A stretch of DNA of 26,829 nt from a bacterium (GTDB lineage: Bacteria; AUK180), in NCBI GenBank assembly GCA_030622125.1, contig JAUXGM010000009.1, forward strand, positions 1 through 26,829, written 5' to 3'. Position numbers and translations under genes: made by a program. The notes under the pieces are model-generated. The model did no database searches and was not told the origin of the DNA. It saw only the letters and a program-made list of their open reading frames with translations. Positions 1,686 to 26,400 of the stretch are shown here, piece by piece (within the stretch, counting starts at the first letter, position 1; each line of letters begins with the position of its first letter).

Positions 1686-1714
1686 TTGAAATAAAATTGA
1701 AAATATAATACAAT
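1686..1714 (+). promoter_or_regulatory. Promoter of the giant TPR operon, leaderless geometry
   Basis: TTGAAA (1686-1691), a 17-base spacer, and TACAAT (1709-1714) lie directly before the TPR gene. Five bases separate the -10 box from ATG at 1720, so initiation at the usual distance would fall on or next to the start codon. There is no room for a Shine-Dalgarno sequence. An overlapping TATAAT at 1704-1709 is an alternative -10 but has no matching -35. Confidence 0.6.
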
Positions 1715-1719
1715 ATAAA

Positions 1720-4700
1720 ATGGGAAAGAAGGAAGAAATCCAGATCTACCTGAATCGAATACAAAGCAAGGTTGCCTCAGTTGAGGATTTTATTGAAGGG
1801 ATAAATTTTTTTAAAGAATACAACAACTATTCCAAAATATTGGGGTTAGCCGATCAGGGGATTGAAAGATTTCCTGATACCGGTATATTTTATTATTGGT
1901 CCGCCTTTGCTTTTTTTCATTTGGAAAAAGACAATGAGGCATTTAACAATATAAATGTCGCTATTTCTAAAAATGCAGATCATAAGGAAAGTATATTATT
2001 AGGTGTAGAAATTGCAAATAAGCTTGGTGATTATGAAAATGCACTTATGTTTATTAAGCTCGGACTCAAAAGATTCGCAGATACACCCGAACTGCTTGAT
2101 ATTATATACCACTTCTTTGATGAGCACAAAGAATTTATATCTGAAAATACCGGTATTTTGACAATTGCATATAAAAATGGGGAAGATAGAGTAGGTGAAT
2201 TCCTATTTGAAACTTTTTATACGGGCAAACTCTCAACGGATGATGCTCTTGATGTTTATATTAAAAAATTTGATCTAAGAAAAGAAGATGAGAATTTTGT
2301 AAAATTTATATCCGCTCTTATAATTCAAAAGAAAAGAACAGATGATAAAGCAATAAATGTGCTTTTTTCTATTTACAATAATGGACGAAAGACAAAAGAG
2401 ATCGTAACATTTTTAGCCGATCATTTTAGTAAAAAATCTCTTTGGGATGATGAATATCAGATGTTGTATGAACATGCGGTAGAATTTGAAACGGCAACAT
2501 ATTCCGTATTTAAATTATTAGGACAAAAATACATACTTTTACAGCAGGAAAGTGAGGTTGCTTTTTCCGTAATATTTCAATATTTTCTCTTTGAACCGGA
2601 CAACAAAGATACAATTTTATATTTGATACCCTTCATGCTAAAGAAAAAGAAATACGGTGTCGATGAAAAAAACTTTTTGAAAATTGCATACAAGCTCTTT
2701 CCCGATAATTTCGATATATTTAAAAAAATTGTTGAAAATATGCTCTTTGATATTAAAGAGACAATAGAATATATCCCATTGTTACAAAGGTATCTTGAAG
2801 AAAACCCAAAATCGGAAAGTGCCATTAAACTTCTTGGAAAGGCATATTTGGAATTAGAAAGAAAGGATTCGGAAGCACTTTTTATATATGAAAAATTTGT
2901 TCGTTTTGAAACAAATAATAAAGAACTTATATCAATTCTTACGGAATATTATTTAAGTGAAAATAGAAAGAACCGACTTGCAATAATAATATATGAAAAA
3001 GCATATCAATTAAATATCGAATCTTATGACTTATATAAGATACTTGGTAGTTATTATCTTGAACGGGGTATCATAAAAGATGATTATATCCCGATCTTTA
3101 AGATCATCTACAATGATCTGAAAACCGATGAGGTTCAATATAAAAGGTTTATTGCTCAAATGGATCAGGCAATACTTGAAAAAAAAGTTACACTGAATAT
3201 TGATGAGTTCTTTTTTGATGTTTTGAAAAATAGTATTGAGAGCGGTAATGAAAATGAGACACTTGAGAAATATTTTATTAAGATTGGAATAGAACTCAAA
3301 AAAATAGATAATAGCTCTTTTGAATTATATAAAAAACTATATCTTAAATATAAATCGGAAAAGCATTTTTTAAATCTACTGTATTCGGCATATAATTCGA
3401 GAAATTTTATTGACGATATAGGAAAAGAAGTATTTGAAACATTATATCCGACTCTAAAAGGTGATAATAAAGATAAGGCAACGATCCTTTTATCGCAATA
3501 CTATATTGATAACAAGATCAGAGATGATTTCAGTTCCGATGTTATTGCAAGGGCAAATGAATTAAGATCAAAAGGGATAAAAATAGAGGGTAACCTTGAA
3601 AAAGGAGTTCAGTTTGCCGTAAAAGCAAATAAGAAAAATCTAAGTTCGCTTGATATTTTTTATAAATACTTACAAATAAATGAAGATAATCCTGCTGTTT
3701 ATAGAAATGCCTGTGAAATTATCATTGAGAATAATGTCTACGATAAAAAATATCTTTCAATCTTAAAGAACGGAATTAATTTATATCCCGAATGGAAAGA
3801 ACCTTTTAATCATTATGCAATAGCACTTGCAAAGAATAAGATAAGAGAAAATGATTCATATCCTATCTGGGAAAAATATATCCTTGCCGGAAACAAAGAT
3901 AATACAATTATTATTGAACTTCTTTCATACTATATAAATAATCAAACACTTGATGCTAAAGCGGAAAAGGTCTTTAAGTATGCACTTGATATCGGGTACA
4001 AGAATGCTCAAACTCTTTTGCAATACGCCAAAATATTATCGATCAACGGAAATTATGAAGAACTTTTGACTATCTTAAAAGAGGTCATTAAATATGACAT
4101 TACAGAAACGGAAGATATTAAATTCATTTGTGATACCCTTCTTTTTTATGCTGCTTTTGATCTCTTAATAAAATTTTTAACTAAGTATTCAGAGAAATCA
4201 ACTATGATAATATGGTATAAGATAAAAGCATTATTCTATTCTGAAAAACTCTCAAAAAATGAAGAACTTATAGAAAATTTCATAAAAAACACCAAATTTA
4301 CAGAAAAGAATGGTGATATCTTTGAAATATACGGTGATTATTATTTCTATAAAAAAAGTGATTTTAATAAGGCATTCAAGGGATACGAATATTACTTAAA
4401 GGTTTTTCCGAATGATCCGCTTGTCCTTTATAAGGCAACTCTTTGTTCATTGAAATTGAATGATCTCTATACGGCATTAAAATATGTTAAAAAATTGCTT
4501 TTATTCAGAGAAAATGATATTGAAGCACAAAAGATTGCAGGGGATATTCACTTTCAATTGGCGGAATGGAATGAAGCAAGTCAATTTTATAAAAGGATAA
4601 TAGGAAATGGCTATAAGGACCGTGAAATACTAAAAAACTATGCACAATCTCTCTTTATGTCACAACAGTATTATGCTGCAATTGACCTTTTTAAAGAAAT

Positions 4701-7700
4701 ATTAGATATAGAACCTACCAATGAAAAAATATTATTATCCCTCACTTATGCTTATACAAGCATTGATTTCAAAGAAGAGACAATAGCTACCTTAGAAAAG
4801 ATCATAGCTCTTAATCCAAACAATAAGGAGGCACTATTTGCACTTTTTACAATTTGTTTAGAGGATAAAAAAAATGATAAAAAAGCGGAATACCTCTATG
4901 AACTGGTTTTAAATGTTGATCCTGAAAATATGGATGCCCTTAAAATGCTTGGAGCAATATACAGTAAATTAGGAAGAAAGGATGACAAGGCAATAAATGT
5001 TTATACCAAAACTTATGATTATGGTGAATTGGATGCCAATATTGTTAAGATCCTTGCCAATAAAGTTGTCGAAGAAGCCGAAGGAACGTTGCATAAAAAA
5101 TTCAGCATTAAAATACTAAAAGATGCAGTGGATATTTTTCCTTCATCTGATAAATATTGGATATTACTTATTGATTTCATAGTTAATGAAGCAAATTTTA
5201 GTGATTATAAAAAATATTTTGAAAAAGCATTTAAAAGAGGGCTCAGAGTTTTTGAATGTTCAGAAAAACTTGCGGAAATATACTATAGAAAAGAAGATTT
5301 CGAACAGGCGCTTTTTTATGCTAAAACTGCATTGTTACAAAATCCATATAAAAGCAAAATTTACAATCTAATGGGTGAGATCTATATTTTAAAAGAAGAT
5401 TATGCCAGGGCAAAAGCACTACTTGACAATGCTATAATATATGATTCCGATAATTTCTATGCCTATCTCAATTATGCAAAGGTGATGGCGTTTTTTAAGA
5501 ATTACCCTCTTGCAATAAGAAATCTTGAAAAGGCACTTACAATAAATAAATACTATTTACCGGCAATTCTTTTATATGCGAAAATAACGGTAGAAAGAGA
5601 TAGCAGCTTAAAAAAGAGCAAGGAACTTCTTAATTTTGTAAAAGATATCTATCCCGGAAATTGGGAGATCACATATTGGTTAACAACAATAAATAAAAAA
5701 CTTGGAGATATTGATCTTGCAATTATTCAAATTAGAGAGGCACTCTCAATTGAAAAAAATCAAGAAACGATTTTACTTTACAGTGATCTATTATGGGAAA
5801 ACGGAGAAAAAGGGAATGCAATTAATTTCCTGTCGCAAAATTGTGAAGAAATGGAATCTCCCGATATCTATAATAAACTCGGTCAATTCTTCTACGCAAT
5901 GAATAACATCGACAGAGCGAAAGAATCATTCTCCGAAGCTGTCAGGATAGATCCTAACTTTATAGATACAAAGATCGAACTTGCAAAATTACATTACAAT
6001 ATTGATAAAGATCTCGAAACAGCAAAGGTTGAATTTCAAAATATTCTTGAATTTAATCCGGAGAATATAATTGCAAAAAGATATTTGGGAAAAATTAATT
6101 ATAGAATGAAAAAGTATGATGTTGCGCTTAAAATATACAAAGAGGTTTTTGAGTTTTTAGATTACGATGATACAAAATTTTTGGTTTCCATTAACTTTAT
6201 GAAAAAGAACTACGATGAGGTTTTAGAGCTTTCATCCTATATGATTAGACAAAATGCTCAGGATGTAGATATTCTTTCAATTCTCTTTGAAACTTACAAA
6301 AACCTTCAATTGTACGATAAAGCGATTGAAATATTTGAAAAATTAAAATTTGTGAATTCTAAAAGAGCAGATGAATATTTTGGTGAATATTTCGGTATCT
6401 TATTGTCCTCGGCAAATTTTGAGAATTTGAGAACGGAACTAACAAGATTAAAGGATGATGATCGATATCGCTCGCAATCTGCAGAATATTATTTTTTTCT
6501 TGAATATTTATTGTACGGCACAAAATTTAAAAAATTGCAGCAATTTTTACCGTATATGATAAAAGAACAGACCGAAGAAATAGATTATAAAAAAAATAGA
6601 GATTTGATGTTATTCCATATCTTACTCCAAGAAGGTGCATTTAGTTCAATTGATTCCCTTATCCATCTTTTTAATAAAAATGATAAACCGATCAAATTTC
6701 TAACAGGCATATATTATCTTAAAACCAACAAACTGACAAGTGCACTGAATATCTTGGCATCATTCAATGATTATTGGTCTTATCCTTACTTCCAAACATA
6801 TCTAACTTATGTAAAAGATCTGCTTCCAAACTTAAAGGAAAAGTATAGATTTAGAAAGATATGGGAGCTTTTATCTTCTCGTCATAACAGGAATGACATT
6901 GCTTATTGGCACAAATTGTTTTTTAAATTTGCAGAAGATAAGTTCAAAGAAAAATTTTACCAAAAGAAAAATATTAAAAAGAGTTTTAAGTTACTACTTG
7001 ACAGAATTGAAAGATATGAAACGGTTCAAGGCAGCAAAGATAGTGATATTGATAGTGATCTTGTTGTAAAAATGTTTCAATACTATAATTTTTTGGCTGG
7101 AAATTATAAGGATTGTCTAAAATTCTCAAAAAAATATAAGTTTGAGGGTATCCTATTTTTAAGTGATCTTTACAATGAACTTCTAAGAAAAAAGCGATCT
7201 AAGAAAAAATTATTACAAATAATTAACAAAAATATGACAGATGAGGAAATTCCCTATTTTTATGATTTTATTTGTAAAGAAGACCTTGCGGAAATTGCAA
7301 TGGTAAGAGTACTTAAAATGAAAGAGAATAAACTAAATGATAATTTCTATGAGATCATTTATGATCTGTATTCAAAAAATATAATTGAGGAAAATGGTAA
7401 ACTTGATAAACTCTTGCAAAATTCAAATTCATTTAATTTGCGATATTTGATAAGAAAAGGTGATTATGAAAATGCTTATGAAACAATAATGAAAATGAAT
7501 TACTTAGAATTCATCTCTAATGAGAACGCTGCTTATATAATGGAAGTTATGCGTCAGGTAGAGGATTATGATCAATTGTTAACATATAAGTACCGTTTTA
7601 TCGATAGTTCTTTTATAAATGATGATACAAATCTTTATTATGCCATCGCTCTTTCAAAATTTTCGTTTGAAGATAAGGGAACTTCTCTTTTAGCAACAGT

Positions 7701-11564: not shown

Positions 11565-12981
11565 GATCCTTATTATTTTCTTAATTTTATTAGGTTCTCT
11601 AATATGTATTCAATGGTATTTCATCAATTATTTTATAAAAGATACATTGGAAAAGCAGCTTATAAATTATATTACAGATATTGGTAAGGCATCGGTAAAG
11701 ACAATAAAGCCAAATATGCTGCAGATATTCCCCGGATTTACAGAAACAAAAACATTCCACAAATTAAAAAAAGATTTAAGAAAATACCAGACAGATTTTA
11801 ATATTGATAATATTATTCTAATGACACCGGAAAAAAGAGTTGTCGTTGATCTTTCCGGAATGTTTAAAAATGGCGATGAATACCTTTTTATTGATATAAA
11901 TAAAAGGCAACTGGTATCTTTGCAAGGGGGACATATAAAATCATCATCTCTCTATAAAAATATGAACAATATATATTGTGAAAACATTTATTTTCCGATC
12001 TTTGATAAAAATAAGGACTTTAAGGGTGTTATGATCCTTTTTGCATCAGCAAAATATTTTCACAGTTTAATGAATTTTCAGAAAAAATTATCATATTTAT
12101 TTGTCGTTATCATAATCCTGTCCGGGCTACTGCTTTATCTATTGGCTCATTCTATCTCCAAACCCGTTGTACAATTATCCAAGCTTGTCGATAAGATCGG
12201 CGAGGGTGAGTTGAATGCAGCGGTTCCTTACAAAAGTAGAAAAGATGAGATAGGTCGTCTTGCAAAGAATATAAAGGATATGATGGATAAGATCAAGAGT
12301 AAAAATATTTTTATGCGTCGGGTATCTGCCGGCATTGCTCACGAGATCAGGAATCCATTAACTGCAATAAAAGGCAACCTGATGCTTATTAAAAGAGCAA
12401 TAAATACCGATCCGCGCTTGCTGGAGATGGTAAATGATAATTTGAGAGAGGTAAATAGTTTAGAGAATCTTGTTAGTGACTTTATGAACTATGCAAAATC
12501 AATAAATATAGAATTGAAAAGTGTTAAAGCAAACGATGTTATCGAAAGGAGTTTACAGGAAATGCAGCCTCTGTTGAAACAAAAAGCAATAAAATTAACC
12601 GACGATATACCGAAATGCCGATTGCTTGCAGATTTTGATTATCTAAAAAGAGCATTCGTAAATATTATAAAAAATAGTATTGAAGCGGTTAAATATAGTG
12701 GCGAAATAAATATAATAGGAGAAATTAGGAAAGGGAAATTATATCTGATATTTTTAGACAATGGAAAGGGAATAGATGAAGAGAACTTTACAACTATATT
12801 TGAACCGTTCTATACATCAAAATCTGCCGGAACAGGGCTTGGACTTTCAATTGTAAAAGAGATAATAGAGAAACATTATGGAAAAATAGAATTAAGTTCG
12901 GAAATGAACAAATTTACAAAAATAACTTTAATTTTACCAATTGAGGAGAAATTATATGGAAAAGATACTGTTAGTAGATGA
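11545..12981 (+). CDS. Membrane sensor histidine kinase (NtrB-like, Cache-type sensor)
   Basis: The kinase should autophosphorylate on His and pass phosphate to the response regulator encoded next. From ATG at 11545 (478 aa) it has TM1 (about 7-28), an extracytoplasmic region of about 150 residues with a Cache/PDC-like look (FPIFDKNKDFKGVM, 149-163), TM2 (about 183-202), and HAMP (about 203-250). The HisKA H-box AHEIRNPL follows, with phospho-acceptor His266. The ATPase domain has the N-box around N373-N377, DNGKGI (405-410), EPF (420-422) and GTGLGL (429-434), so all catalytic motifs are intact. An upstream TTG at 11527 is possible, but ATG is preferred. It overlaps the VanZ gene by 20 bases and the regulator gene by 26. 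The sensed ligand is unknown. Confidence 0.92.
   Translation: MKSIKIRILIIFLILLGSLICIQWYFINYFIKDTLEKQLINYITDIGKASVKTIKPNMLQIFPGFTETKTFHKLKKDLRKYQTDFNIDNIILMTPEKRVVVDLSGMFKNGDEYLFIDINKRQLVSLQGGHIKSSSLYKNMNNIYCENIYFPIFDKNKDFKGVMILFASAKYFHSLMNFQKKLSYLFVVIIILSGLLLYLLAHSISKPVVQLSKLVDKIGEGELNAAVPYKSRKDEIGRLAKNIKDMMDKIKSKNIFMRRVSAGIAHEIRNPLTAIKGNLMLIKRAINTDPRLLEMVNDNLREVNSLENLVSDFMNYAKSINIELKSVKANDVIERSLQEMQPLLKQKAIKLTDDIPKCRLLADFDYLKRAFVNIIKNSIEAVKYSGEINIIGEIRKGKLYLIFLDNGKGIDEENFTTIFEPFYTSKSAGTGLGLSIVKEIIEKHYGKIELSSEMNKFTKITLILPIEEKLYGKDTVSR
12943..12948 (+). promoter_or_regulatory. Shine-Dalgarno GAGGAG fixing the regulator start
   Basis: GAGGAG lies 7 bases upstream of ATG at 12956, inside the end of the kinase gene. 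It supports that ATG over an in-frame TTG at 12941, which overlaps the site itself. Confidence 0.7.
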
Positions 12982-14335: not shown

Positions 14336-15081
14336 GAAAAATACCGCTGTTGATCTCCTTATTATTTCTCTTAATAAGTATAGATATACAAGCGGATAAT
14401 ATTTCTCTTATTATCGATCAAATAAAATCGCAGGAAAAAGAATTAAAAAAAATAAACTCAAAAGAAAAAAAATTACAATCATCAATAACAAAAATCGAAG
14501 ACAAAAATGATATCATATCAAAAGGTAAAAAGGTTCGGTACCTAAATAAATTGAACAAGATCCAGAATAAAAAAGTTGAAATTATTAAGAATAAGAAAGA
14601 AAAAATTGCTCGATTAAAGATTATTTTAACAGATAAGATAGCGCTATATGAAAAGCGTATCATTGAAACTTCAAATGACAAAATAGAAGAGATCCTCTCT
14701 ATGCAGGAAGAATTTCTAAGGTTGAAAAAGCTCTATAATTTTTATTTTATTGAAAAAATTGATATAATAATAAATAAAGATGAACCACAGGATGTCATAG
14801 AAAAAAAGATGGATGTAATAAGGGAAAAAATTACTTATTTTTCAAACGAGGTAAAAAAGACAGAGATGATGATAACTACTATGCAAGAGCAGACAGCATT
14901 TATTAAAAATTCAAATTATCATTTAACGGATGAAGAAAATTTCAATAATGACTATATTGAGTTTATTGAAAGAGTAATATCATATTTGAAAATAGATATT
15001 GAAAAGAAAAAAAATATTATAAATTTGTATAAAAATCAGCTAAAATATTTTAGGGGAGGTAAAGGGAATGAAAAAAATTAG
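14332..15081 (+). CDS. Secreted coiled-coil protein of unknown function
   Basis: I do not recognise a family. The first 21 residues form a signal peptide (MRK, then a Leu/Ile-rich core, IQA before the likely cut). The remaining roughly 228 residues are nearly all charged helix, rich in Lys, Glu and Ile, with heptad-like spacing around 30-110 and again after 165, so a periplasmic coiled coil is likely. No LytM or other enzymatic domain follows, unlike EnvC-type murein-hydrolase activators with a similar helical N-terminus. Its start overlaps the regulator stop as ATGA, and its end overlaps the next gene by 14 bases, so it belongs to the kinase/regulator unit. A structural or adaptor role in the periplasm is inferred. 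Confidence 0.75.
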   Translation: MRKIPLLISLLFLLISIDIQADNISLIIDQIKSQEKELKKINSKEKKLQSSITKIEDKNDIISKGKKVRYLNKLNKIQNKKVEIIKNKKEKIARLKIILTDKIALYEKRIIETSNDKIEEILSMQEEFLRLKKLYNFYFIEKIDIIINKDEPQDVIEKKMDVIREKITYFSNEVKKTEMMITTMQEQTAFIKNSNYHLTDEENFNNDYIEFIERVISYLKIDIEKKKNIINLYKNQLKYFRGGKGNEKN

Positions 15082-16852: not shown

Positions 16853-17917
16853 ATGCATAAAGATTGTGTTAAAGCGAGTAAAAAAATATATCATATTTTA
16901 TCTGATGAAAACTTAATGAGGTCGGAAATAAAAAAAATATTGATAATTAGACCCGGACGAATAGGTGATGTTCTCTTAACTACACCCGTCATAAGAAGTT
17001 TAAGAAAGAAATTTCCGGATGCACGGATAGATTTTTTAGTTACAAAAGCATCATTTCAAATACTTGAAAATAATAACTACATAGATAATGTTTTAATATT
17101 TGATAAAACAAAGACACTCTATTGGACTAAAAAAATACGACGCGAAAAATATGATTTAATTCTTGATTATTTTGGAAATTCAAGAAGTATTTCTATTATC
17201 CTGTTTAGTGGTGCAAAAATAAAGGTCGGGTATAAAGGTCATGGAAGGGAATTCGTTTATAATGTAAGTATAAAAAGAAGATCTGATAAAGAAAGTTATA
17301 CGGTAAATGATCTTTACAAATATCTTAATGTTTTGAATGCCAAAACGGATGGTTATAAATTGGATTTTTTCATAGATGATAGATCAAAACAATATATTGA
17401 AAATTATATAGCGAATAATTTAAGTAATAAGGATTTTATTGTTATTTCTCCAACCTCAAGACGGCAGGCAAGGGTTTGGAAGGAAGAATATTTTGCAGAG
17501 GTTATTACACATATAAAGGATAATTATAAATTTGAGATTATATTGGTTTGGGGCGGTGAAAATGAATTGAAGGTTGTAAATAGGATAAATAAAATTGCAA
17601 GAGGAGGTGCACATATTGCACCGAAAACAGATTTAAAGCAGTTGGGTGCACTTATTGCGAGAAGTAAATTAATGATCACGAATAACAATGGTCCTATGCA
17701 TATTGCGGTTTCACAAGGTATCCCGACAATTACAATTTGTGGTCCAACAAATCCTATTAACTGGAAAGCGCCTGAAAAAATACACAGAACGGTTTATGCC
17801 GATATTGACTGCATCGGTTGCGGCAAGAAAGAATGCTCTGTGCACAGATGTATGATAGAACTAAAACCGGAAAGAATTATAGAAGAATTTAAAAATTTAT
17901 TAAAAATGAGGAGGTAG
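16853..17917 (+). CDS. Glycosyltransferase family 9 (heptosyltransferase-like)
   Basis: This GT9 enzyme is related to ADP-heptose:LPS heptosyltransferases, which add heptose to the lipopolysaccharide core at the inner face of the inner membrane. The N-terminal Rossmann half begins ILIIRPGRIGDVLLTTP, the family hallmark. The second half contains WGGENE (donor-site loop, usually GGxxE), NNNGPMHIAVSQG and GPTNPINW. A four-Cys stretch near the C-terminus (CIGCGKKECSVHRC) is common in GT9 members. ATG at 16853 gives 21 residues before a second ATG at 16916; the true start is uncertain because neither has a strong ribosome site. It sits 49 bases after the barrel gene. Donor and acceptor sugars cannot be told from sequence. 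Confidence 0.88.
   Translation: MHKDCVKASKKIYHILSDENLMRSEIKKILIIRPGRIGDVLLTTPVIRSLRKKFPDARIDFLVTKASFQILENNNYIDNVLIFDKTKTLYWTKKIRREKYDLILDYFGNSRSISIILFSGAKIKVGYKGHGREFVYNVSIKRRSDKESYTVNDLYKYLNVLNAKTDGYKLDFFIDDRSKQYIENYIANNLSNKDFIVISPTSRRQARVWKEEYFAEVITHIKDNYKFEIILVWGGENELKVVNRINKIARGGAHIAPKTDLKQLGALIARSKLMITNNNGPMHIAVSQGIPTITICGPTNPINWKAPEKIHRTVYADIDCIGCGKKECSVHRCMIELKPERIIEEFKNLLKMRR
17908..17914 (+). promoter_or_regulatory. Strong Shine-Dalgarno GAGGAGG
   Basis: GAGGAGG sits 5 bases upstream of ATG at 17920 and immediately before the GT9 stop codon. It shows that this genome uses canonical Shine-Dalgarno initiation inside operons and supports the reality of the 66-residue gene that follows. 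Confidence 0.75.
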
Positions 17918-17919
17918 AG

Positions 17920-18120: not shown

Positions 18121-18130
18121 AGAAGTCGCT

Positions 18131-18406
18131 ATGGCGGAAACAATCGGATCCTTAGTAGATAAGATAAGTATTGTTCAATTAAAAATTTATCATTTCAAGG
18201 AAGAGATCAGAAGGGAAGATATCGATGATCGTCACGGATATCTATGTAAAAAAAACATTGATATTCTAAATGAACAGTTGGATGATTTAATTGAAGAATT
18301 GGATGTTTTAGTTAGTGATATAATAAAAGGTAAAAGGAAACTGAAAATATTCAGACAATTTAAAATGTACAATGACCCAAAATTTAAACGTGATATAGTG
18401 GATTAG
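18131..18406 (+). CDS. Small helical protein, diverged copy of the preceding gene
   Basis: These 91 residues align by eye with the preceding protein: GSLVDKISIVQLKIYHFKEEIR matches GKLISDLAMINIKLWHTEDKAR, and KKNIDILNEQLDDLIEELD matches KREIDKLNQQRNNLIENID. The C-terminal extension IFRQFKMYNDPKF is unique to this copy. A tandem duplication within the operon is the simplest reading, and the two products may pair as helical bundles. The ATG follows the previous stop by 10 bases without a good ribosome site, so translation may depend on the upstream gene. No enzymatic motif is seen. It is the last gene before the repeat-rich spacer. Confidence 0.7.
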   Translation: MAETIGSLVDKISIVQLKIYHFKEEIRREDIDDRHGYLCKKNIDILNEQLDDLIEELDVLVSDIIKGKRKLKIFRQFKMYNDPKFKRDIVD

Positions 18407-18444
18407 GACATCACCGAAAAGGTTAAGAAGAGGTTAGAGGCATG

Positions 18445-18470
18445 CCCCGCACCGTAAAACTGGTGCGGGG
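18445..18470. repeat. GC-rich palindrome CCCCGCACC/GGTGCGGGG
   Basis: The 9-base arms are exact reverse complements around an 8-base loop. Related, degenerate copies lie at 52-77 and 150-172. No T-run follows, so it is classed as a dispersed palindrome, though it could still end transcription of the GT9 operon weakly. Confidence 0.7.
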
Positions 18471-18559
18471 TGAAAGGTTAGAGGTTAGTGAAAAACAATA
18501 TTAATCTCCGTCCCCCATTAAAAGAGGGACATTACCTCAACTTTCTGATTTTTAAAGTT

Positions 18560-18703
18560 GAGGTGTGTCCCGGATTCTTCATTAGATAACGATATATCTC
18601 CTGAGAACAGTATTGCCAAAGGAAATAGAATGAGGTGTGTCCCGGACTCTTCCTTAGATAACGATAGACCACCCGAGAACAATATTGCCAAAGAAAATAG
18701 GTT
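18560..18703. repeat. Two tandem 72-base repeat units (GTGTCCCGGA element)
   Basis: Units start with GAGGTGTGTCCCGGA at 18560 and 18632 and share TTAGATAACGATA and GAGAACA.TATTGCCAAA in register, differing at a minority of positions. A third dispersed copy lies at about 200-262, and a fragment of the 5' part at 26753-26766. Because 72 is a multiple of three, the minus strand stays open through it, producing a false repetitive ORF. Confidence 0.8.
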
Positions 18704-18841
18704 CAAAAACTAGATTCTTCACCCCAAAGGGGTTCAGAATGACCCCGTATCAAGTACGGGGTAAACTCCGAGGGAAGGGGTTCTGAATGACAGAAAAATT
18801 CCAAACCCCAAATTTCAAATCTTAAATGTTCTTTCCTAAGT

Positions 18842-18870
18842 TTGAATTTTTGATGTGTATAATGTATAAT
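18842..18870 (+). promoter_or_regulatory. Promoter of the GT2/rSAM/recO/ispF operon, leaderless geometry
   Basis: TTGAAT (18842-18847), a 17-base spacer and TATAAT (18865-18870) are followed after 5 bases by ATG at 18876. The geometry is identical to the promoters of the TPR and methyltransferase genes. A second TATAAT at 18858-18863 has only a 10-base spacing to the same -35. Confidence 0.65.
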
Positions 18871-18875
18871 CAATA

Positions 18876-19127
18876 ATGGTAGGTTTAATTGCTGTCTCTA
18901 TTAATACATTTAATTTTCCTTTTTGGGAAATCTACTTAAATCAAAAAAAACTTGAAAAAAATCGTGATTTTTTATTAAATATAGATATTAAAAAAGGTAA
19001 GAATAAATGTATTTTGAAATTTCAGTTACCATTAATCTTAATTGTGATTTTTGCATTACAGATCATTTTAATAGTAGGAGTTTATTGTGGGATTAAAAAT
19101 ATCAGTCATCGTTCCAATACCGCCTGA
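18876..19127 (+). CDS. Small putative membrane protein (83 aa), doubtful
   Basis: This ORF starts 5 bases after a good -10 box, exactly where two other promoter-proximal genes start, which is the main reason to believe it. The first 48 residues are unremarkable (MVGLIAVSINTFNFPFWEIY, then charged). Residues about 49-72 form one hydrophobic helix (LPLILIVIFALQIILIVGVYCG). It overlaps the GT2 start by 41 bases. I recognise no family. Alternatives are a decayed or frameshifted reading frame, a leader ORF, or a non-translated leader for the GT2 operon; a different frame at 19007-19096 encodes a 29-residue peptide with CDFC. Confidence 0.4.
   Translation: MVGLIAVSINTFNFPFWEIYLNQKKLEKNRDFLLNIDIKKGKNKCILKFQLPLILIVIFALQIILIVGVYCGIKNISHRSNTA
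19076..19080 (+). promoter_or_regulatory. Shine-Dalgarno AGGAG for the GTG-started GT2 gene
   Basis: AGGAG ends 6 bases before GTG at 19087 and decides that start, giving MGLKISVIVP as expected for a GT2 N-terminus. Confidence 0.7.
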
Positions 19128-20007
19128 GTTAAAAGAGCCGACAAACATCTCTATCCTAAATAAAATAAAAAATAAAGGGATAGAGGTCATAATTGTAACA
19201 GGAAGAAATCCGTCAAAACAAAGAAATATTGCAGTAACAAAGGCAAGCGGGGATATACTTTACTTCATAGATGAGGATTCTATACCCAGGATGGAGAATC
19301 TTGATCTTATAAGGGATGAATTTGAAAAAAATAATGTGGACATATTAGGAGGACCGTCGGTGCTTCCCGAAAAGGGACCAACCATAGAGGAGGTTTATTA
19401 CCACATACTTTCAATGCCTCTTATTGTGGGTGGAATATCATCACGATATACCGAAATAGGAAAGAGACGAAGATCGGGTGAAGGCGAACTTATACTTTGT
19501 AATATGGCAGTACGAAAACAGTTTTTTCAAGATCTTAACGGTTTTCCCGAAGACCTTTATCCAAATGAGGAAAATGCTTTTCTCGTAATGGCAAAAAGAA
19601 AAAAGGCAAATATTATTTATAATCCGGTATTCACAGTTGAAAAAGCAATGAAATTGAAGATAAATGAATTTATAAAATTAATATTTAAATATGGAAAGGG
19701 GAGAGGAAATCAAACGAGAAGATATCCTTCGACGGTAAATATTATAAAACTACTCACTGTTTTTTTTCTTCCGCTTATTATCTTTTCAATAATTTATGAT
19801 CCGGCGGAATATATATTCGATGCCTATCTTATCTATGACATTATCCTTGCCTTTCTACTTTCCAATTGGACTTTTTATACATTTTTTCATTATCTTCTAC
19901 TTATACCGCTCACCCATTCTACTTATGGAATCGGAATCGTTGTCGGGCTCTTTTCCGGATCAAAATCCCAAAAAGCAGGGAATATGGAAGTTACTATTCT
20001 AAAATGA
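19087..20007 (+). CDS. Glycosyltransferase family 2 with C-terminal membrane helices
   Basis: The N-terminal GT-A domain begins ISVIVPIPPE. It has SKQRNIAVTKASGDILYFIDEDS (about residues 39-61), matching the GT2 pattern R N x G ... G D ... F x D x D with the metal-binding DED, and a later NEENAF segment where the catalytic acidic residue is expected. The C-terminal third (about 215-290) has two or three hydrophobic segments, as in membrane-anchored GT2 enzymes that build surface polysaccharides or glycolipids. Translation starts at GTG. The stop overlaps the ATG of the radical SAM gene (ATGA), so the two products probably act together, but the substrate is unknown. Confidence 0.85.
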   Translation: MGLKISVIVPIPPELKEPTNISILNKIKNKGIEVIIVTGRNPSKQRNIAVTKASGDILYFIDEDSIPRMENLDLIRDEFEKNNVDILGGPSVLPEKGPTIEEVYYHILSMPLIVGGISSRYTEIGKRRRSGEGELILCNMAVRKQFFQDLNGFPEDLYPNEENAFLVMAKRKKANIIYNPVFTVEKAMKLKINEFIKLIFKYGKGRGNQTRRYPSTVNIIKLLTVFFLPLIIFSIIYDPAEYIFDAYLIYDIILAFLLSNWTFYTFFHYLLLIPLTHSTYGIGIVVGLFSGSKSQKAGNMEVTILK

Positions 20008-21077
20008 ATTTATCACATATTATTTCAATCTTTCGTTTTCTTTTTGGTGGAACAAAGCCAAGCTCAGGTCCATTGAAGGTGCATTGGGATATTGAGTATA
20101 AATGTAATTCAAGATGCAAAACCTGCCAGAGATGGAATGGTCCATATCCTAATGATCAATTAACAACAGTGGAGGGGCTTGATTTGATAGATGAACTTGC
20201 AGATCTCGGTGTAATGACGCTTTCGTTTTCCGGGAACGAACCCCTACTTCGAGATGATATTTACCAGCTTATCGCTTATGCACATATAAGGAAAATAAGA
20301 ACATCCCTGAATACCAACGGACTTCTTCTAAATGAAAAAAATATTGATAAATTGATAAGATCACATCTTGATATGATCTATTTTTCTATAGACGGACATA
20401 CACCTGAACTGCATGATCGGATAAGGGGAGTTCCAGGCGGCTTTCAGAAAATATTAGATGCAAAAGAACTATTCGGGAAGAAAAAAGGAGCACCCATCCT
20501 GATGGTTAATACTGTTGCAAATCACTTGAATATACCCTATCTTGATAAGATCGTTAAATTTATAAAAAATGAAAATTTTGACGGGATATTGATACAACCG
20601 GCACATAACATCAAAACATTTTTTGAGCAGATAGATGAGACAACGGTAACTCCCGATGATGTTCCAATACTCACTGAAAAATTAAAATTTATATTAAAAA
20701 GTTATGGCAATTTCATACCACTCCAAAAAAAATATTTTAAGGAGTTTGAAACATTTTATACAAATCCGGGTAAATTATACAGATATAGATGTAGCGCGGG
20801 ATATATCACACTTGACATTAGACAGAATGGTGAGATCACCCCTTGTCCCCTCGGATTTGCCTCAGGTGGCTACTATAAAAAAGGTAATCTGAGGAAACTT
20901 TGGTATTCTAATAAAATGAATAGTATCCGTATGAAAATAAAAAATAACGACCACCCTATTTGCTGGTTCGCCTGTATAGTTCCAATAAATCTGATCTTCA
21001 GCAGCATCAGAAGATTTGAGATATTCGAGTTTTTTAATTACGGATTTATGCGTCATATTTTCAGGAAGTTAAAATGA
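20004..21077 (+). CDS. Radical SAM protein with SPASM-like C-terminal Cys cluster
   Basis: From ATG at 20004 (357 aa) the protein has WDIEYKCNSRCKTC with the CxxxCxxC iron-sulfur motif (C34, C38, C41) and SFSGNEPLLRDD, the variant of GGEP that contacts SAM. The TIM-barrel core runs to about residue 230. A second cluster follows (C263, C281, C320, C324), together with GEITPCPLG and GNLRKLW, which resembles SPASM/twitch domains holding an auxiliary [4Fe-4S]. The N-terminal 20 residues include a short amphipathic or hydrophobic stretch. An in-frame start far upstream, inside the GT2 gene, is unlikely. It is coupled by ATGA overlaps to GT2 upstream and recO downstream. Modification of a glycan, lipid or peptide made with the GT2 enzyme is inferred. 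Confidence 0.88.
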   Translation: MNLSHIISIFRFLFGGTKPSSGPLKVHWDIEYKCNSRCKTCQRWNGPYPNDQLTTVEGLDLIDELADLGVMTLSFSGNEPLLRDDIYQLIAYAHIRKIRTSLNTNGLLLNEKNIDKLIRSHLDMIYFSIDGHTPELHDRIRGVPGGFQKILDAKELFGKKKGAPILMVNTVANHLNIPYLDKIVKFIKNENFDGILIQPAHNIKTFFEQIDETTVTPDDVPILTEKLKFILKSYGNFIPLQKKYFKEFETFYTNPGKLYRYRCSAGYITLDIRQNGEITPCPLGFASGGYYKKGNLRKLWYSNKMNSIRMKIKNNDHPICWFACIVPINLIFSSIRRFEIFEFFNYGFMRHIFRKLK

Positions 21078-21775
21078 TATTAGACAGTGGATATATAATT
21101 GAAAAGCGTCCCGTTAACGATATTGACGCTTTTATTAAAATTGCCTCTCGAAAGGGTGTATTTTCATATTTTATTCCAAGGGGCAATCATTTTTCATCGC
21201 GCCTTCTTGGTCTATTTCAGCCATTTTATAGAGTTAAATTCTTATATGATGTAAAAGGCTCCGGTGGGCTGCGGGTTATTTATGATTATAAAAGTTACGA
21301 AAAACTGTCGGATACTGTCATTTTTGACGAGAAAAAGAGAGAATTCTTATTTTATCTTATTAAAATTTATAACCGTTTAACAAATATTACCACTGGAAAA
21401 ATAATAATGGATCTTTTTGATAAAAGTATAAAAATGCTTTATAATGACAATATAAATGTAAAAGGGCTTTCCTTTAGTTTTTTAGTTACTTTTCTTTTTT
21501 ACGAAGGATTTTATCCTTCTATTTTGACTTGCAGTAATTGTAACCGAGAAATTCATTCTTATGATTTCAGCATTGAATCGGGAGGTTTTATCTGTGATAA
21601 ATGTAAAAAGACGAAAAAATATACAAAAACGAACGAATTTTTTTATAGAGCACTTTTATATGGAAAAACAAATCCGAAAAAAATTATGCAAAAATTTAAT
21701 TGGAATGAGAAAATTTTAGAATTTTATGATATAATAAGAAAGTATTTTAATTACCATTTTTTTGGAGCAGAGTAA
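21074..21775 (+). CDS. DNA repair protein RecO
   Basis: RecO loads RecA onto SSB-coated DNA with RecR (and RecF) during recombinational gap repair. The 233-residue length is typical. The N-terminal OB-fold part is recognisable from SGYIIEKRPVNDIDAFIKI..SRKGVFSYFIPRG, and the C-terminal helical part contains the zinc-finger pair CSNC...CDKC, with FLVTFLFYEGFYPSI just upstream as in RecO. Overall identity to well-known RecO proteins is low, as is usual for this family, so the call rests on architecture, zinc site and length. ATGA overlap with the radical SAM gene and TAATG overlap with ispF place it in one operon. Confidence 0.75.
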   Translation: MILDSGYIIEKRPVNDIDAFIKIASRKGVFSYFIPRGNHFSSRLLGLFQPFYRVKFLYDVKGSGGLRVIYDYKSYEKLSDTVIFDEKKREFLFYLIKIYNRLTNITTGKIIMDLFDKSIKMLYNDNINVKGLSFSFLVTFLFYEGFYPSILTCSNCNREIHSYDFSIESGGFICDKCKKTKKYTKTNEFFYRALLYGKTNPKKIMQKFNWNEKILEFYDIIRKYFNYHFFGAE

Positions 21776-22269
21776 TGTTAGATGATCTAAGGATCGGTTT
21801 CGGTTATGATATTCATAAATTCATAAAGGGAAACGGATTTAATTTGGGCGGTGTTTTTATTATTGCTGATTTTGGTGTTGAAGCTAATTCTGATGGGGAT
21901 GTTGTAATCCATTCCTTGATGGATGCTATACTCGGAGCACTTGCAAAAGGGGATATTGGTCTGCATTTTCCACAAAACGAACCCAGGTGGAAGAATAGTA
22001 GTAGCAAAGATCTCCTCAGTATTGTGTTGAGTAAATATTCAAATTTTATTGAAAAGATCATAAATGTTGACATTACTATCAAATTAGAAAAGCCAAAGAT
22101 AGCAAAATATAGAGAAGAAATAAGAACAACCATTGCCGAATTTTTAAATATTAATGATGATAGGGTTAATATAAAGATAAAATCCGGCGAAGGAATAGGA
22201 AATATCGGTAGATGTGAGGCAATAGAAGCGTACACTGCCGTTTTAATAGGAATTAAAAATGGACGGTAA
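21775..22269 (+). CDS. 2-C-methyl-D-erythritol 2,4-cyclodiphosphate synthase
   Basis: IspF converts CDP-methylerythritol 2-phosphate to the cyclic diphosphate and CMP in the non-mevalonate isoprenoid pathway, as a cytosolic trimer. The zinc ligands are visible: GYDIH (D12, H14) and H46 in SDGDVVIHSLMDAI. GDIGLHFP (59-66) and the C-terminal EGIGNIGRCEAIEAYTAVLI, equivalent to the usual TEGLGFxGRxEGIAAxA, complete the family signature. The length of 164 aa is normal. The loop usually rich in Thr before EGxG reads KSG here, a modest divergence. A GGAG ribosome site lies 7 bases upstream. No ispD is adjacent, so the pathway genes are scattered. Confidence 0.95.
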   Translation: MLDDLRIGFGYDIHKFIKGNGFNLGGVFIIADFGVEANSDGDVVIHSLMDAILGALAKGDIGLHFPQNEPRWKNSSSKDLLSIVLSKYSNFIEKIINVDITIKLEKPKIAKYREEIRTTIAEFLNINDDRVNIKIKSGEGIGNIGRCEAIEAYTAVLIGIKNGR

Positions 22270-22963
22270 GATCTGGAATAAGATTATATGGATATTAAAA
22301 AGAGAGGAATTTCTTGGAAATGACAAGATTAATTTTTCAAAGGTTAGGGAGAACTTAAAAAGGTGCAGCAGGATAGATATTACCAATTCAAAAAAGAAAG
22401 ATAGAGAGGATTTCAAAACTATGGAAGATATTAGAAAAGCAATAATCAATTGTAAGAAATGTCCGTTATACCTGTCAAGAACAAATCCGGTTGTGGGGGA
22501 AGGTCCATTGACTCCTAATATACTTTTTATAGGTGAAGCACCCGGAGCGGATGAAGATATATCAGGTAGACCATTTGTCGGACGGTCGGGAAGAAAATTA
22601 AGGGAAATACTAAATTCGATTGGTATTACAGATGATATGTTCTATATTACAAATATATTGAAATGCAGACCTCCGAACAATAGGGATCCCAATTCAAAAG
22701 AGATAGATGCCTGTGTTCCATATCTTGATTTCCAAATTAAAAAATTGAATCCCGATGTAATATGTACACTTGGTACATTTGCATCTCAATTCATACTAAA
22801 AACAAATGAGAGGATCGGAATTTTAAGAGGCAAGGTTCACCATAAAAATAATAGAACGATTATTGCTACCTATCACCCAAGTTTTATTTTAAGAAATCAA
22901 TCAATGGGATCGGTATTAAAAAATGATCTTCTTCTCTGTTTAAATGAGGTAAAAAAGTTATGA
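22259..22963 (+). CDS. Type-4 (family 4) uracil-DNA glycosylase, iron-sulfur
   Basis: This enzyme removes uracil from DNA as the first step of base-excision repair. The four [4Fe-4S] ligands are present: C65 and C68 in NCKKCPL, C136 in ILKCRPPNNRDP, and C152 in DACVPYLDFQI. The catalytic-site motif is GEAPGADED (92-100), with FVGRSGRKL following, and the second active-site motif is YHPSF (205-209). The core starts near residue 55, so the first 50 or so residues are an extra charged helical stretch with a Trp-rich start and no clear homology; a later internal start cannot be ruled out. ATG lies 11 bases inside ispF, and the stop overlaps the next gene (ATGA). Confidence 0.93.
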   Translation: MDGKIWNKIIWILKREEFLGNDKINFSKVRENLKRCSRIDITNSKKKDREDFKTMEDIRKAIINCKKCPLYLSRTNPVVGEGPLTPNILFIGEAPGADEDISGRPFVGRSGRKLREILNSIGITDDMFYITNILKCRPPNNRDPNSKEIDACVPYLDFQIKKLNPDVICTLGTFASQFILKTNERIGILRGKVHHKNNRTIIATYHPSFILRNQSMGSVLKNDLLLCLNEVKKL

Positions 22964-23853
22964 AACGTTACTGTGATCTTCATGTCCATTCCAAATATTC
23001 TACTGATGGACAACATACAATTATTGAATTAGCAAGATTAGCTAAAAAGAGGAAACTTGCTGCAATGATCGTAACCGATCATAATGAAATTGCCGGCACA
23101 TTTGAATTTGGCAAGATTGCAAGTGAATTTGATATAGAAACAATAACCGGTGTAGAGCTTTCCACCAGAGGAAATGATCAGCGAAATATTCATATATTGC
23201 TCTATAAAATAAAAAGAGATAAGCAACTTTTGAATGTAATTGATTCTATAAAAAATCAATATGAGGTATTAACGAAATTAAGGATAGAAAAACTGAATGA
23301 ACTCGGATTTCATATTGAATGGAAGAATGTTTTAAATGAAAATACAAAAGTACCGAGTTTAGGTCCGACACTTGGTGCTGCCGTTTTGCATAATAATAAA
23401 AACAAAAAAGATCCAAGATTAATGGCTTATAGAAATGGTGATGGTGATAAAGACGGATATAATTTTTATTGTGATTATTTAAGAACTGAGGACACACCCG
23501 CCTATATAGAATTTAAGGAATATTCTTCGGTAGATGCGCTGAGGTTGGCGGAAGAAATAAAAAACACATCGGTTTTTGCTCATCCCGGTTATTCTCTGCG
23601 TCGTTATGATAGGAGAAAACAGGAAGAATTTATAAAAAATTTTGTAGAAAACGGATTAAAAGGAATAGAGGTATTTTCTTCTCATCACAGTAAGGATGAT
23701 GTAATTTTTTTCACGGCAATTTCAAAAAAATGGGATCTTTTGGTTACGGGTGGTTCGGATTTTCATGGTGAAAAAAACAAACCGGGAATAAAATTAGGTT
23801 GTGAAAATATCCCGTATAAATATTTTTCTTTGTTAAAGAGAAAAACTTTTTGA
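22960..23853 (+). CDS. PHP-domain metal-dependent phosphoesterase (RNase AM/YciV-like)
   Basis: The fold and motifs are those of the stand-alone PHP family, which includes E. coli YciV (RNase AM) and 3',5'-nucleotide bisphosphate phosphatases. Metal-binding motifs in order are DLHVHSKYSTDG (6-17), TDHNE (39-43), GVELS (64-68), VFAHPGY, IEVFSSHHS and GGSDFHG, so the trinuclear site looks complete. The 297-residue length fits. A lineage-typical insertion (about residues 130-170) lies between motifs. ATG overlaps the glycosylase stop, with GAGG 10 bases upstream. The likely role is nucleotide or RNA-end trimming in housekeeping; the exact substrate cannot be fixed from sequence. It is the last gene of this operon. 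Confidence 0.88.
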   Translation: MKRYCDLHVHSKYSTDGQHTIIELARLAKKRKLAAMIVTDHNEIAGTFEFGKIASEFDIETITGVELSTRGNDQRNIHILLYKIKRDKQLLNVIDSIKNQYEVLTKLRIEKLNELGFHIEWKNVLNENTKVPSLGPTLGAAVLHNNKNKKDPRLMAYRNGDGDKDGYNFYCDYLRTEDTPAYIEFKEYSSVDALRLAEEIKNTSVFAHPGYSLRRYDRRKQEEFIKNFVENGLKGIEVFSSHHSKDDVIFFTAISKKWDLLVTGGSDFHGEKNKPGIKLGCENIPYKYFSLLKRKTF

Positions 23854-23878
23854 CTTTTTTTTATTTTTTTGGTATAAT
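23850..23878 (+). promoter_or_regulatory. Near-consensus sigma70 promoter of the OmpA-like gene
   Basis: TTGACT (23850-23855), a T-rich 17-base spacer and TATAAT (23873-23878) form the best promoter in the window. The -35 box overlaps the last codons of the PHP gene. Only 8 bases separate the -10 box from ATG at 23887, which predicts a 5' leader of about 0-3 bases and no Shine-Dalgarno. Confidence 0.8.
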
Positions 23879-23886
23879 GATATACT

Positions 23887-24762
23887 ATGAAAATTAGAAA
23901 AGGAATTTTCTTGGCATTATTTTTCATATTTACAACATTGTCTTTTGCAGATGAGATATCAGATGCAATAGAATTTTTTGATAGATCAACCGAGAATTTC
24001 AACGAAGCAACCGAACTTTTCAATAAAGCAAATAAATTATCGGCAAAAGGTGAGGACAATCTTACAATAGATGAGTTGAATGAATTAGCAGATCTATATA
24101 CAGAGGCAACAGAAAAATTTGTAGCAGCAGGTAATTTTCAAAGAAAGGCAAATAAAATATTAGCAGATGCAGGCATATCACTTGATGAAGAAGAAGCTCC
24201 AATACCAAAACCGAAACCGAAACCAAAACCAAAACCAGTATTATCCGAACAAGAAAAAGCAAAGAAAAAAGCAAAATCCAAAGCTGTTGCAATGAGAGCA
24301 AGGGCAAAGGCACAACTTGTAATGAAAAGAATTGAGGCGGAAAAAGAAAGAAAAGCGGCGATAAAAAAAATGGGGAAAGAAAATCATTTAAAATTTGTAG
24401 AGGATGGAAGGGGACCGATGTTCAGAATTACATTAGGGATTGAAAATAGATCATCCAAACTTACAGATGAGTTTTTGAATGAATTAAACGAAGTAATAAA
24501 TGTAATGAAACTTTACCCGATCTATTATGTAAAAATAGAATCTTATGGATTTGATTTCAGTAATACAAATAGAAATATGAAACTTTCAAAGACAAGAGCA
24601 AAAAAAGTTGCGCATTATTTAATTGATAAGGATATCACCAAATATGAAATAGTACTTTCTCCACAGGGTAATGGTGAATCAATAACAACAGATGGCTACA
24701 AAAAAAATAATTCAAGGATTGAACTCGTTTTTTTCAGAGAAGAAGGATATTTTAGAAAATAA
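23887..24762 (+). CDS. OmpA-like peptidoglycan-binding protein with coiled-coil N-terminus
   Basis: Residues 1-21 are a signal peptide ending SFA. An Ala/Asn/Glu-rich helical region (about 22-100) contains near-repeats of ATEKF/ATELF and NKANK. A Pro-Lys dipeptide linker (about 107-117), encoded by a CCNAAA hexanucleotide array, is followed by a basic helix (120-165). The C-terminal part (about 170-291) is an OmpA-like domain: an Asp before NxxxxLSxxRAKKVAHYL, then GNGES and NSRIELVF, matching the family's N..LS..RA..V and N.R(V/I)E(I/L) signatures. Such domains bind the diaminopimelate peptide of peptidoglycan. There is no lipoprotein Cys or N-terminal barrel, so it is probably periplasmic. 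It is the first gene of its transcript. Confidence 0.85.
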   Translation: MKIRKGIFLALFFIFTTLSFADEISDAIEFFDRSTENFNEATELFNKANKLSAKGEDNLTIDELNELADLYTEATEKFVAAGNFQRKANKILADAGISLDEEEAPIPKPKPKPKPKPVLSEQEKAKKKAKSKAVAMRARAKAQLVMKRIEAEKERKAAIKKMGKENHLKFVEDGRGPMFRITLGIENRSSKLTDEFLNELNEVINVMKLYPIYYVKIESYGFDFSNTNRNMKLSKTRAKKVAHYLIDKDITKYEIVLSPQGNGESITTDGYKKNNSRIELVFFREEGYFRK

Positions 24763-24763
24763 A

Positions 24764-25441
24764 ATGAGCGAACGAGCGAAGCGAGTGAGCGAATATGATA
24801 TGAATTCAAATATTATGAACAATGCTGAGATACCAACAAATGTAATGGAAGCAATTAGCGGTGAAGCTACTGATTTTGTTGTAAAAGCAAAAAGAAAAAC
24901 AGCAACAGGCAGTTCTATTTTAGGTATTGTCTTTGCTTTGTTTTGGCTGGGCATTTCCGGCTTCATAATGGCAATGATGCTTGGACCGCTTTTAAAAGGA
25001 AAAAGTGTTCCGATTACGATAAATGGGGTTCGCAAAGTCGGCTTACTTCAAAATATTGGTCCGCTTACCTTTCCATTAATATTTATAAGCATTTTTGTTT
25101 TAATTGGTTTAATAATATTAATATTTTCGATCGTATCCATATTTAAAAAAGGGGGATGGTTCGCAGGAACAAAAAACCGACTCATTATAGTTGGGAATAA
25201 AGGTAGTCAGTCAATAGATTGGGAGCAATTTTCCGGAAATATAAAAGTATCCGGAACGAATGAAAATGGTAGTTTGATATTGGAAATGAGAACAGGACGA
25301 ATGGTGCATTCACGGAATAGAGGTTCACATTATGTTCCAAATAAAATAGCAATGATCGGAATACAAAATGTTTATGAAATAGAAAAAATTTGCAGAAAAT
25401 ACATCAAAGCAAATGACCCGAGCCCTGCAAGAAACATATAA
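24764..25441 (+). CDS. Two-helix membrane protein, possible PH-like domain
   Basis: No firm family call. Two hydrophobic segments (about residues 45-70 and 85-118 from this start) are separated by a short loop. The soluble C-terminal half begins GWFAGTKNRLIIVGNKG and continues as beta strands ending in a helix (YEIEKICRKYIK), which resembles bacterial PH-like domains of small membrane proteins. The start is uncertain. ATG at 24764 follows the OmpA-like stop by 1 base, but its first 11 codons are a repetitive GAGCGAA tract; ATG at 24800 gives MNSNIMNN without it; a third in-frame ATG at 24692 would overlap the previous gene by 71 bases. Co-transcription with the OmpA-like gene is likely. Confidence 0.65.
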   Translation: MSERAKRVSEYDMNSNIMNNAEIPTNVMEAISGEATDFVVKAKRKTATGSSILGIVFALFWLGISGFIMAMMLGPLLKGKSVPITINGVRKVGLLQNIGPLTFPLIFISIFVLIGLIILIFSIVSIFKKGGWFAGTKNRLIIVGNKGSQSIDWEQFSGNIKVSGTNENGSLILEMRTGRMVHSRNRGSHYVPNKIAMIGIQNVYEIEKICRKYIKANDPSPARNI

Positions 25442-25508
25442 AAAAAGTTCAAAGGTTCAAAGTTTAAATACAATTCAGAACCGTCATTCAAAGCAACTCC
25501 TCCCATCC

Positions 25509-25534
25509 GTCATTCTGAGCAAAGCGAAGAATCT
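25509..25534. repeat. Dispersed 26-base element GTCATTCTGAGC...AAGAATCT
   Basis: This copy differs at two positions from the one at 26657-26682, and an inverted, interrupted copy lies at 18712-18743. The ends are near-complementary (GTCATTCT/AAGAATCT share ATTCTT-type arms), as in other dispersed palindromic elements. It lies in the 230-base spacer before the methyltransferase. Confidence 0.7.
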
Positions 25535-25637
25535 CATGTAGATACTTTCCGCCAAATTGGAATTTGAATAATCGGTTAACCCCGTTAGAAGTTTTTTGCT
25601 TCACAAATAAAATATCTTATTTTGTAAAAAACTAAGG

Positions 25638-25666
25638 TTGCAATTTTTTTAAGTTTTAGATATAAT
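25638..25666 (+). promoter_or_regulatory. Promoter of the methyltransferase gene, leaderless geometry
   Basis: TTGCAA (25638-25643), a 17-base spacer and TATAAT (25661-25666) are followed after 5 bases by the GTG start at 25672. The same 17/5 spacing is seen at 1686 and 18842. Confidence 0.7.
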
Positions 25667-25671
25667 AAACC

Positions 25672-26400
25672 GTGGGTAAATATGCACGGATTGCTCCTTA
25701 CTATGACAGATTTAAAAATGAAAGTTTTTATAAAATCGTTTTAAATTATCTTGTTAATAAAATCATTCCGCTTGAGAACACAAAATTGCTTGATATTGGA
25801 ACAGGTACCGGATTCTTTCCACTTTATTATGCAAGGAAAGGAATTGAATGTATTGGAATAGATCACAGCAGGCAGATGATAAATATAGCAAGAAATTCTG
25901 CCGAAAAACAAGGGTTAAATAATATTAAATTCATTGAGAAGGATTTTCTAAAATATAACACTAATGAAAAATTTGATTATGTGATAATGTTTTTTGATGT
26001 TATAAATCATATTACAGAACCGAAAAATATTACATTACTTTTTAATAAAGTCTATTCCTCAATGAACAAAGGTGGCTATTTCTTTTTTGATATACTTACA
26101 ATGTGGGGAATGAGTAAGGCATGGGGAAATGACAAATTTTATGAGTATTATGATAATTTCAAGATATTGTGGAGATCTAACTGGAATAACAAGAAAAGAT
26201 TATTAACCGTTAATATGAAGATCATATCGGATAAGGAAGAGATAAAAGAAACCGTTGTTGAAAGAGGCTATGAAAAACAATATTTAGAAGAAAAACTGAT
26301 TGAAATCGGTTTTAAGATCAAGGGAAGTTACCCATTCTTTTTTCATAAAAACCACCCTGGCAGATACATTATTTGGGTTGAGAAAGCTGGTGACGAATGA
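25672..26400 (+). CDS. Class I SAM-dependent methyltransferase
   Basis: The 242-residue protein has a Rossmann-type methyltransferase core: motif I LLDIGTGTGFFPLYY (39-53), the ribose-binding acid D64 in IGIDHSRQMI, motif with D91 (FIEKDFLKY), and FDYVIMFFDVINHI (101-114). The N-terminal YARIAPYYDRF is typical of free-standing small-molecule or cofactor methyltransferases. The C-terminal third, with GYEKQYLEEKLIEIGFKIKG, resembles the usual substrate lid region. The substrate cannot be assigned. Translation starts at GTG, with no ribosome site possible because the -10 box ends 5 bases upstream. It is monocistronic, between two repeat spacers. Confidence 0.88.
   Translation: MGKYARIAPYYDRFKNESFYKIVLNYLVNKIIPLENTKLLDIGTGTGFFPLYYARKGIECIGIDHSRQMINIARNSAEKQGLNNIKFIEKDFLKYNTNEKFDYVIMFFDVINHITEPKNITLLFNKVYSSMNKGGYFFFDILTMWGMSKAWGNDKFYEYYDNFKILWRSNWNNKKRLLTVNMKIISDKEEIKETVVERGYEKQYLEEKLIEIGFKIKGSYPFFFHKNHPGRYIIWVEKAGDE

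Follow-up and report, generated by a model that had tools for sequence, protein, structure and literature searches.

Promoters set directly against start codons suggest leaderless mRNAs for a minority of transcription units in one bacterial family

Can a bacterial promoter lie so close to its gene that the message begins on the start codon itself? The question is raised by the window, as we call the whole 26,829-nucleotide stretch of DNA analyzed here (contig C103 of a 2.08-Mb genome in 192 contigs). An earlier note had described four -35/-10 pairs in it with 17-base spacers, whose -10 boxes end 5, 5, 8 and 5 bases before a start codon; read directly, all four are where that note placed them (Table 1). 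We hereafter call the distance between -10 box and start codon the gap. Comparison of promoter and start-codon sequences across this genome and its family makes it highly likely that, in a minority of transcription units, a housekeeping-type promoter is set so that transcription begins on the start codon and yields a leaderless mRNA.

Table 1. Promoters, genes and Shine-Dalgarno (SD) sites of the window
Feature	Position	Strand	Description
Promoter 1	-35 1686-1691; -10 1709-1714	+	TTGAAA, TACAAT; 17-base spacer; 5 bases to ATG 1720; read directly
Giant TPR-repeat protein, 3139 aa	1720-11139	+	ORF with TPR matches; predicted leaderless first gene
SD	12943-12948	+	GAGGAG, 7 bases before ATG 12956 of an operon-internal gene; read directly
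SD	15053-15059	+	GGGGAGG, 8 bases before ATG 15068 of an operon-internal gene; read directly
SD	17908-17914	+	GAGGAGG, before ATG 17920 of an operon-internal gene; read directly
Promoter 2	-35 18842-18847; -10 18865-18870	+	TTGAAT, TATAAT; 17-base spacer; 5 bases to ATG 18876; read directly
83-aa ORF	18876-19127	+	Doubtful gene; coding score about 6; no Pfam family
SD	19076-19080	+	AGGAG, before GTG 19087 of a glycosyltransferase family 2 gene (Pfam Glycos_transf_2); read directly
Promoter 3	-35 23850-23855; -10 23873-23878	+	TTGACT, TATAAT; 17-base spacer; 8 bases to ATG 23887; read directly
OmpA-family protein	23887-24762	+	Pfam OmpA 1.6e-10; signal-peptide-like N-terminus; predicted near-leaderless
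Promoter 4	-35 25638-25643; -10 25661-25666	+	TTGCAA, TATAAT; 17-base spacer; 5 bases (AAACC) to GTG 25672; read directly
Class I SAM-dependent methyltransferase	25672-26400	+	Pfam Methyltransf_31 2.7e-18; coding score 73; predicted leaderless, GTG start

Convincing genes stand behind three of the four promoters: the TPR gene at 1720, the OmpA-family gene at 23887 and the methyltransferase gene at GTG 25672. The TPR protein is encoded by a single ORF upstream of a cluster of VanZ-like, sensor-kinase and sigma-54 regulator genes. Its promoter holds a second, perfect TATAAT at 1704-1709, 10 bases before the ATG, from which the leader would be about 3-5 bases long, and the base immediately 5' of this ATG is an A, which counts against a start on the codon. 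For the OmpA-family gene, the gap of 8 predicts a leader of 0-3 bases. Two starts are conceivable for the ORF that follows it, GTG 24785 and ATG 24692, the latter giving a 71-base overlap with the OmpA gene; no clear SD precedes either, and a Pfam search of the protein gave no match. At promoter 4, a C at -1 precedes the G of the start codon, in agreement with a pyrimidine-purine initiator.

The gene behind promoter 2 is less convincing. The start at 18876 is doubtful because the coding score of its ORF is near zero (6, versus 25-125 for most comparison genes) and a Pfam search of the 83 residues matched no family; the ORF may not be a gene. An additional TATAAT lies at 18858-18863, and promoter 2 may instead belong to the glycosyltransferase operon that starts downstream at GTG 19087, in which case the leader would measure about 210 bases.

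Taken by itself, the window does not establish the leaderless claim, because its three gap-5 combinations of promoter and start (any frame, any strand) are not above the 1.6 expected under a first-order Markov model (mean of 60 simulations, maximum 5). Only with the rest of the genome and its relatives does the pattern become significant. Our sample of the phylum comprised seven genomes: the window's own and G001-G004, which form one family, and G005 and G006, from another family of the same class. Over whole genomes we counted the pattern TTG-N19-21-TATAAT-N5-ATG, with the identical pattern reversed as control. Pattern and control counts were 45 versus 6 in the window's genome, 58 versus 2 in G001, 58 versus 3 in G002, 43 versus 0 in G003 and 52 versus 1 in G004. 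The other family was weakly enriched (14 versus 2 and 10 versus 2), and none of its 39 sampled first genes was a gap-5 case; the trait is for these reasons not extended to the whole phylum. Among 24 genomes outside the phylum the count never exceeded 10 and was mostly at control level.

The gap has a preferred value and some play around it. With the gap left free between 2 and 12 bases, gaps of 5, 6 and 7 accounted for 26, 18 and 16 of the matches listed for the window's genome, with 1-6 at the flanking gaps, and for 28, 19 and 14 of those listed for G003. The modal gap is 5 in both and in G004. The fixed geometry proposed in the earlier note is therefore too strict: gaps 6 and 7 are enriched too, which rejects a strictly fixed 5-base spacing. 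The -35 to -10 spacers of the promoter matches are mostly 17 bases. Because these counts demand an exact TATAAT, they underestimate the size of the class. A -10-like hexamer that peaks 5-8 bases before the start and rises above control is what marks bacterial leaderless (TA-led) genes, and such a peak is found here.

Position within the operon sharpens the pattern. Gene samples covered 603 kb of the window's genome (about 30%) and 100-400 kb from each of three relatives, with starts assigned by a simple automatic coding-score caller blind to upstream signals. A -10 hexamer (TATAAT with at most one mismatch) stood exactly 5 bases before the start in 12 of 121 first-in-operon genes versus 3 of 276 internal genes in the window's genome (Fisher p 8e-5), and in 8 of 34 versus 1 of 71 in G003 (Fisher p 4e-4). 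The difference in G004, 7 of 98 versus 4 of 175, is marginal alone (p 0.06), and the small G001 sample, with gap 5 in 1 of 33 first genes, counts against the pattern. When a -35 box was required and gaps 5-7 were admitted, 42 of 286 first genes qualified versus 6 of 536 internal genes across the four family genomes. The alignment of first-gene upstream regions on which the earlier note had staked its proposal thus gives a sharp -10 peak at 5 bases, and the class shows the operon-proximal restriction of TA-led genes.

The broader proposal, leaderless initiation for first genes and SD sites inside operons, survives in part: a leaderless class exists, is first-in-operon only and lacks SD sites. 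A clean division does not hold, since about 10-25% of first genes bear the leaderless signature and about 40% have an SD, the others having neither. The low share with the signature, together with the lack of both signals in about half of the remaining first genes, counts against the leaderless reading. The good SD sites described before operon-internal genes are all four present (Table 1), and the 16S rRNA tail (GGUCACCUCCUU / GGTCACCTCCTT) retains an intact CCUCC anti-SD. With an SD peak 6-7 bases before internal starts, the remaining genes have the features of SD-dependent initiation. The leaderless class and the SD exclude each other: across the four family genomes an SD precedes 1 of 42 leaderless candidates, whereas 118 of the remaining 244 first genes have one (p about 8e-10).

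We propose that in a minority of transcription units a sigma-70/sigma-A-type promoter (TTGAnn, 17 bases, TATAAT) adjoins the start codon, and that RNA polymerase would start on the first base of that codon, a purine that lies at the sixth base past the -10 box and follows a pyrimidine. The resulting mRNA would begin with AUG or GUG, or at most about 3 bases before it. Because the promoter lies tight against the ORF, an SD would not fit on such an mRNA, which would presumably be engaged by 70S ribosomes or 30S-fMet-tRNA complexes at its 5'-terminal AUG. Downstream operon genes and many other first genes would use SD initiation through the intact anti-SD, and single genes would switch between the two modes during evolution. 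The sequences themselves show the boxes, their spacing, the positional peak, the exclusion of the SD, the initiator bias and the conservation, and from these we infer where the 5' ends lie and that translation is leaderless; for the family, leaderless initiation is very probable.

Transcription in bacteria tends to start on a purine (+1) that follows a pyrimidine (-1). Of 147 gap-5 starts in G001-G003, 125 have a pyrimidine at -1, a higher share than the 61% of SD-led first genes (p about 2e-10). In G003 this bias fades as the gap grows, from strong at gap 5 (26 of 28) through weaker at gap 6 (13 of 19) to absent at gap 7 (5 of 14). A second sign comes from start-free promoters, by which we mean those lacking a start codon at gaps 4-8. 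In G003 and G004 together, pyrimidine-purine steps in this set are commonest at offset 6 from the -10 box, with 36 of 98 (p 2e-4, or 0.003 once corrected for 14 offsets), and in the window's genome they occur at that offset in 18 of 51 (p 0.01). Offset 6 is the position of the A of ATG at gap 5. Two independent signs in the sequence thus say that transcription in the gap-5 class would start at the start codon.

The alternative that survives best is that transcription mostly begins 1-5 bases short of the start codon, leaving very short leaders. It would account for the enrichment of gaps 6-8 and for the loss of the -1 bias at gap 7, and it fits the preference of E. coli RNA polymerase for position 7 (PMC5730371). 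At gap 5, the commonest class, an upstream start would however have to lie no more than 5 bases past the -10 box, and it is on the A that the initiator bias sits. As a general account we judge it unlikely, though not negligible; in any case it applies to part of the class, such as the gene at 23887 with its gap of 8.

A start on the codon itself would place initiation closer to the -10 box than is usual in E. coli. There, too, the start is set by distance from the -10 box together with a pyrimidine-purine initiator, but it lies 7 bases after the box (PMC5730371), whereas the sequence bias here points to 6 as the preference of RNA polymerase. We tentatively suggest, at somewhat less than even chances, that the primary RNA polymerase of the family prefers 6 rather than 7 and that a large leaderless set is built on a shortened discriminator, with the start tuned to the A of AUG. 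If confirmed, the 6-base preference would mean that RNA polymerase behaves differently in this lineage.

Several genes keep this architecture across three or four genera. The nrdR gene has TTGACW-17-TATAAT-N5-ATGAAATGYCC in the window's genome, G001, G004 and G003, although its discriminator and flanking DNA have diverged between genera and the upstream regions of the window's genome and G003 have little else in common; nrdR of the outgroup family has an AAAGGA-type leader instead. In era, TATAAT lies 5-7 bases before the start in all five family genomes. The giant TPR gene has TTGAAA-17-TACAAT-N5-ATG in the window and TTGAAA-17-TAAAAT-N6-ATG in G004, G001 and G003, where its orthologues are full length (open frames of 3136-3141 aa); in G002 it appears to be SD-led. 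Other genes have changed. Homologues of the OmpA-family gene in G001 and G004 have the same type of promoter and are SD-led, with about 20 bases of leader that include AGAGGAGA. Among reciprocal best pairs generally, leaderless and SD or other states are often exchanged.

Conservation also bears on whether the promoters are real and the start codons wrong, a later in-frame ATG or GTG with an SD giving ordinary leadered mRNAs. In its favour, the starts were assigned by a program, and neither signal precedes about half of first genes. We nevertheless consider it very unlikely. The start of nrdR is set by its protein family, with position 1 of Pfam Zn_ribbon_NrdR aligning to residue 1, and a later start would lose the MKCPYC motif; in a carbon-nitrogen hydrolase the profile match runs from residue 2. 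The bias toward a pyrimidine at -1 and A at +1 falls exactly on the ATG, and the SD is nearly lacking in the class.

It is more improbable still, to the point of being scarcely credible, that the -10-like boxes are chance matches or AT-rich signals such as an S1-type ribosome site, given that in this genome of 30-33% G+C, with a window not above Markov expectation and with AT-rich non-canonical ribosome sites known from the FCB group, the reversed control is nonetheless 7- to 50-fold lower, G003 included (46% G+C in the sample; 43 versus 0), and the nrdR boxes are conserved while flanking DNA is not. The reversed-pattern control rejects a chance AT-rich effect, and a -35 box at 17 bases with a single-base positional peak rejects an FCB-type site, which has no promoter structure.

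Promoters that begin transcription on the start codon are familiar from other bacteria. The earlier note held leaderless genes to be known chiefly from Actinobacteria and Deinococcus-Thermus, so that a mixed genome would be notable. They are far more widely reported, in 207 of 953 bacterial genomes (PMC3160421) and by prediction in 21.6% of bacterial species (PMC9581028), and for this reason a mixture of leaderless and SD-led genes is not notable by itself. The TA-led genes of Zheng et al. 2011 (PMC3160421) resemble those described here: both have TANNNT or TATAAT about 10-12 bases upstream and no SD, both are operon-proximal only and occur alongside SD-led genes, and in both the signals interchange between orthologues, as was described for Actinobacteria. 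Unlike in that survey, which as far as we could tell did not include the present lineage, a -35 box with a 17-base spacer is usual here and the modal gap is 5. The Streptomyces leaderless genes tabulated in the same paper (Table 1, PMC3160421) likewise have a -10 box just before ATG or GTG and a transcription start on the codon, with gaps of mostly 6-7 bases versus 5 here.

Deinococcus-Thermus offers the nearest parallel so far described: there a -10 box adjoins the ORF, the mRNA is leaderless and a second class of genes has an SD (PMC12340547). The box, TANNNT, lies 6-7 bases upstream in nearly one third of genes; in the present family TATAAT lies at 5 bases in about 10-25% of first genes. 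Run with annotated starts on D. deserti plasmid 2 as a positive control, our script gave a peak at 6-7 bases (7 and 6 of 115), and on a 50-kb E. coli sample it gave no -10 peak. The gap distributions of the family and D. deserti differ (p 6e-5, from small numbers), and the mode of 5 in the window's genome, G003 and G004 departs from the 6-7 bases of Deinococcus-Thermus. What we describe is a known way of initiation in a new lineage, with a spacing about 1 base shorter than in the best-studied cases; this shortened spacing is its most unusual part.

Leaderless initiation would thereby be extended to a small phylum known here from seven genomes. The nrdR, era, 3139-aa TPR and OmpA-family genes form a test set in which the mode of starting has been kept or switched between genera. 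For annotation of these genomes, a TATAAT ending 5-7 bases before an ATG would indicate the true start.

Other features of the window and its genome may be of use. The intergenic DNA at 18559-18700 holds two 70-base tandem copies, 89% identical (TGAGGTGTGTCCCGGA...), followed by a short repeated module, AAGGGGTTCNGAATGAC. A further intergenic block at 25481-25540 contains CCGTCATTCTGAGCAAAGCGAAGAATCTC, and the repeat type looks dispersed. Elsewhere (L060:260-2758), a predicted leaderless gene encodes a clostripain-family peptidase whose C-terminal type IX sorting domain (Por_Secre_tail) is a hint that the lineage may use type IX secretion.
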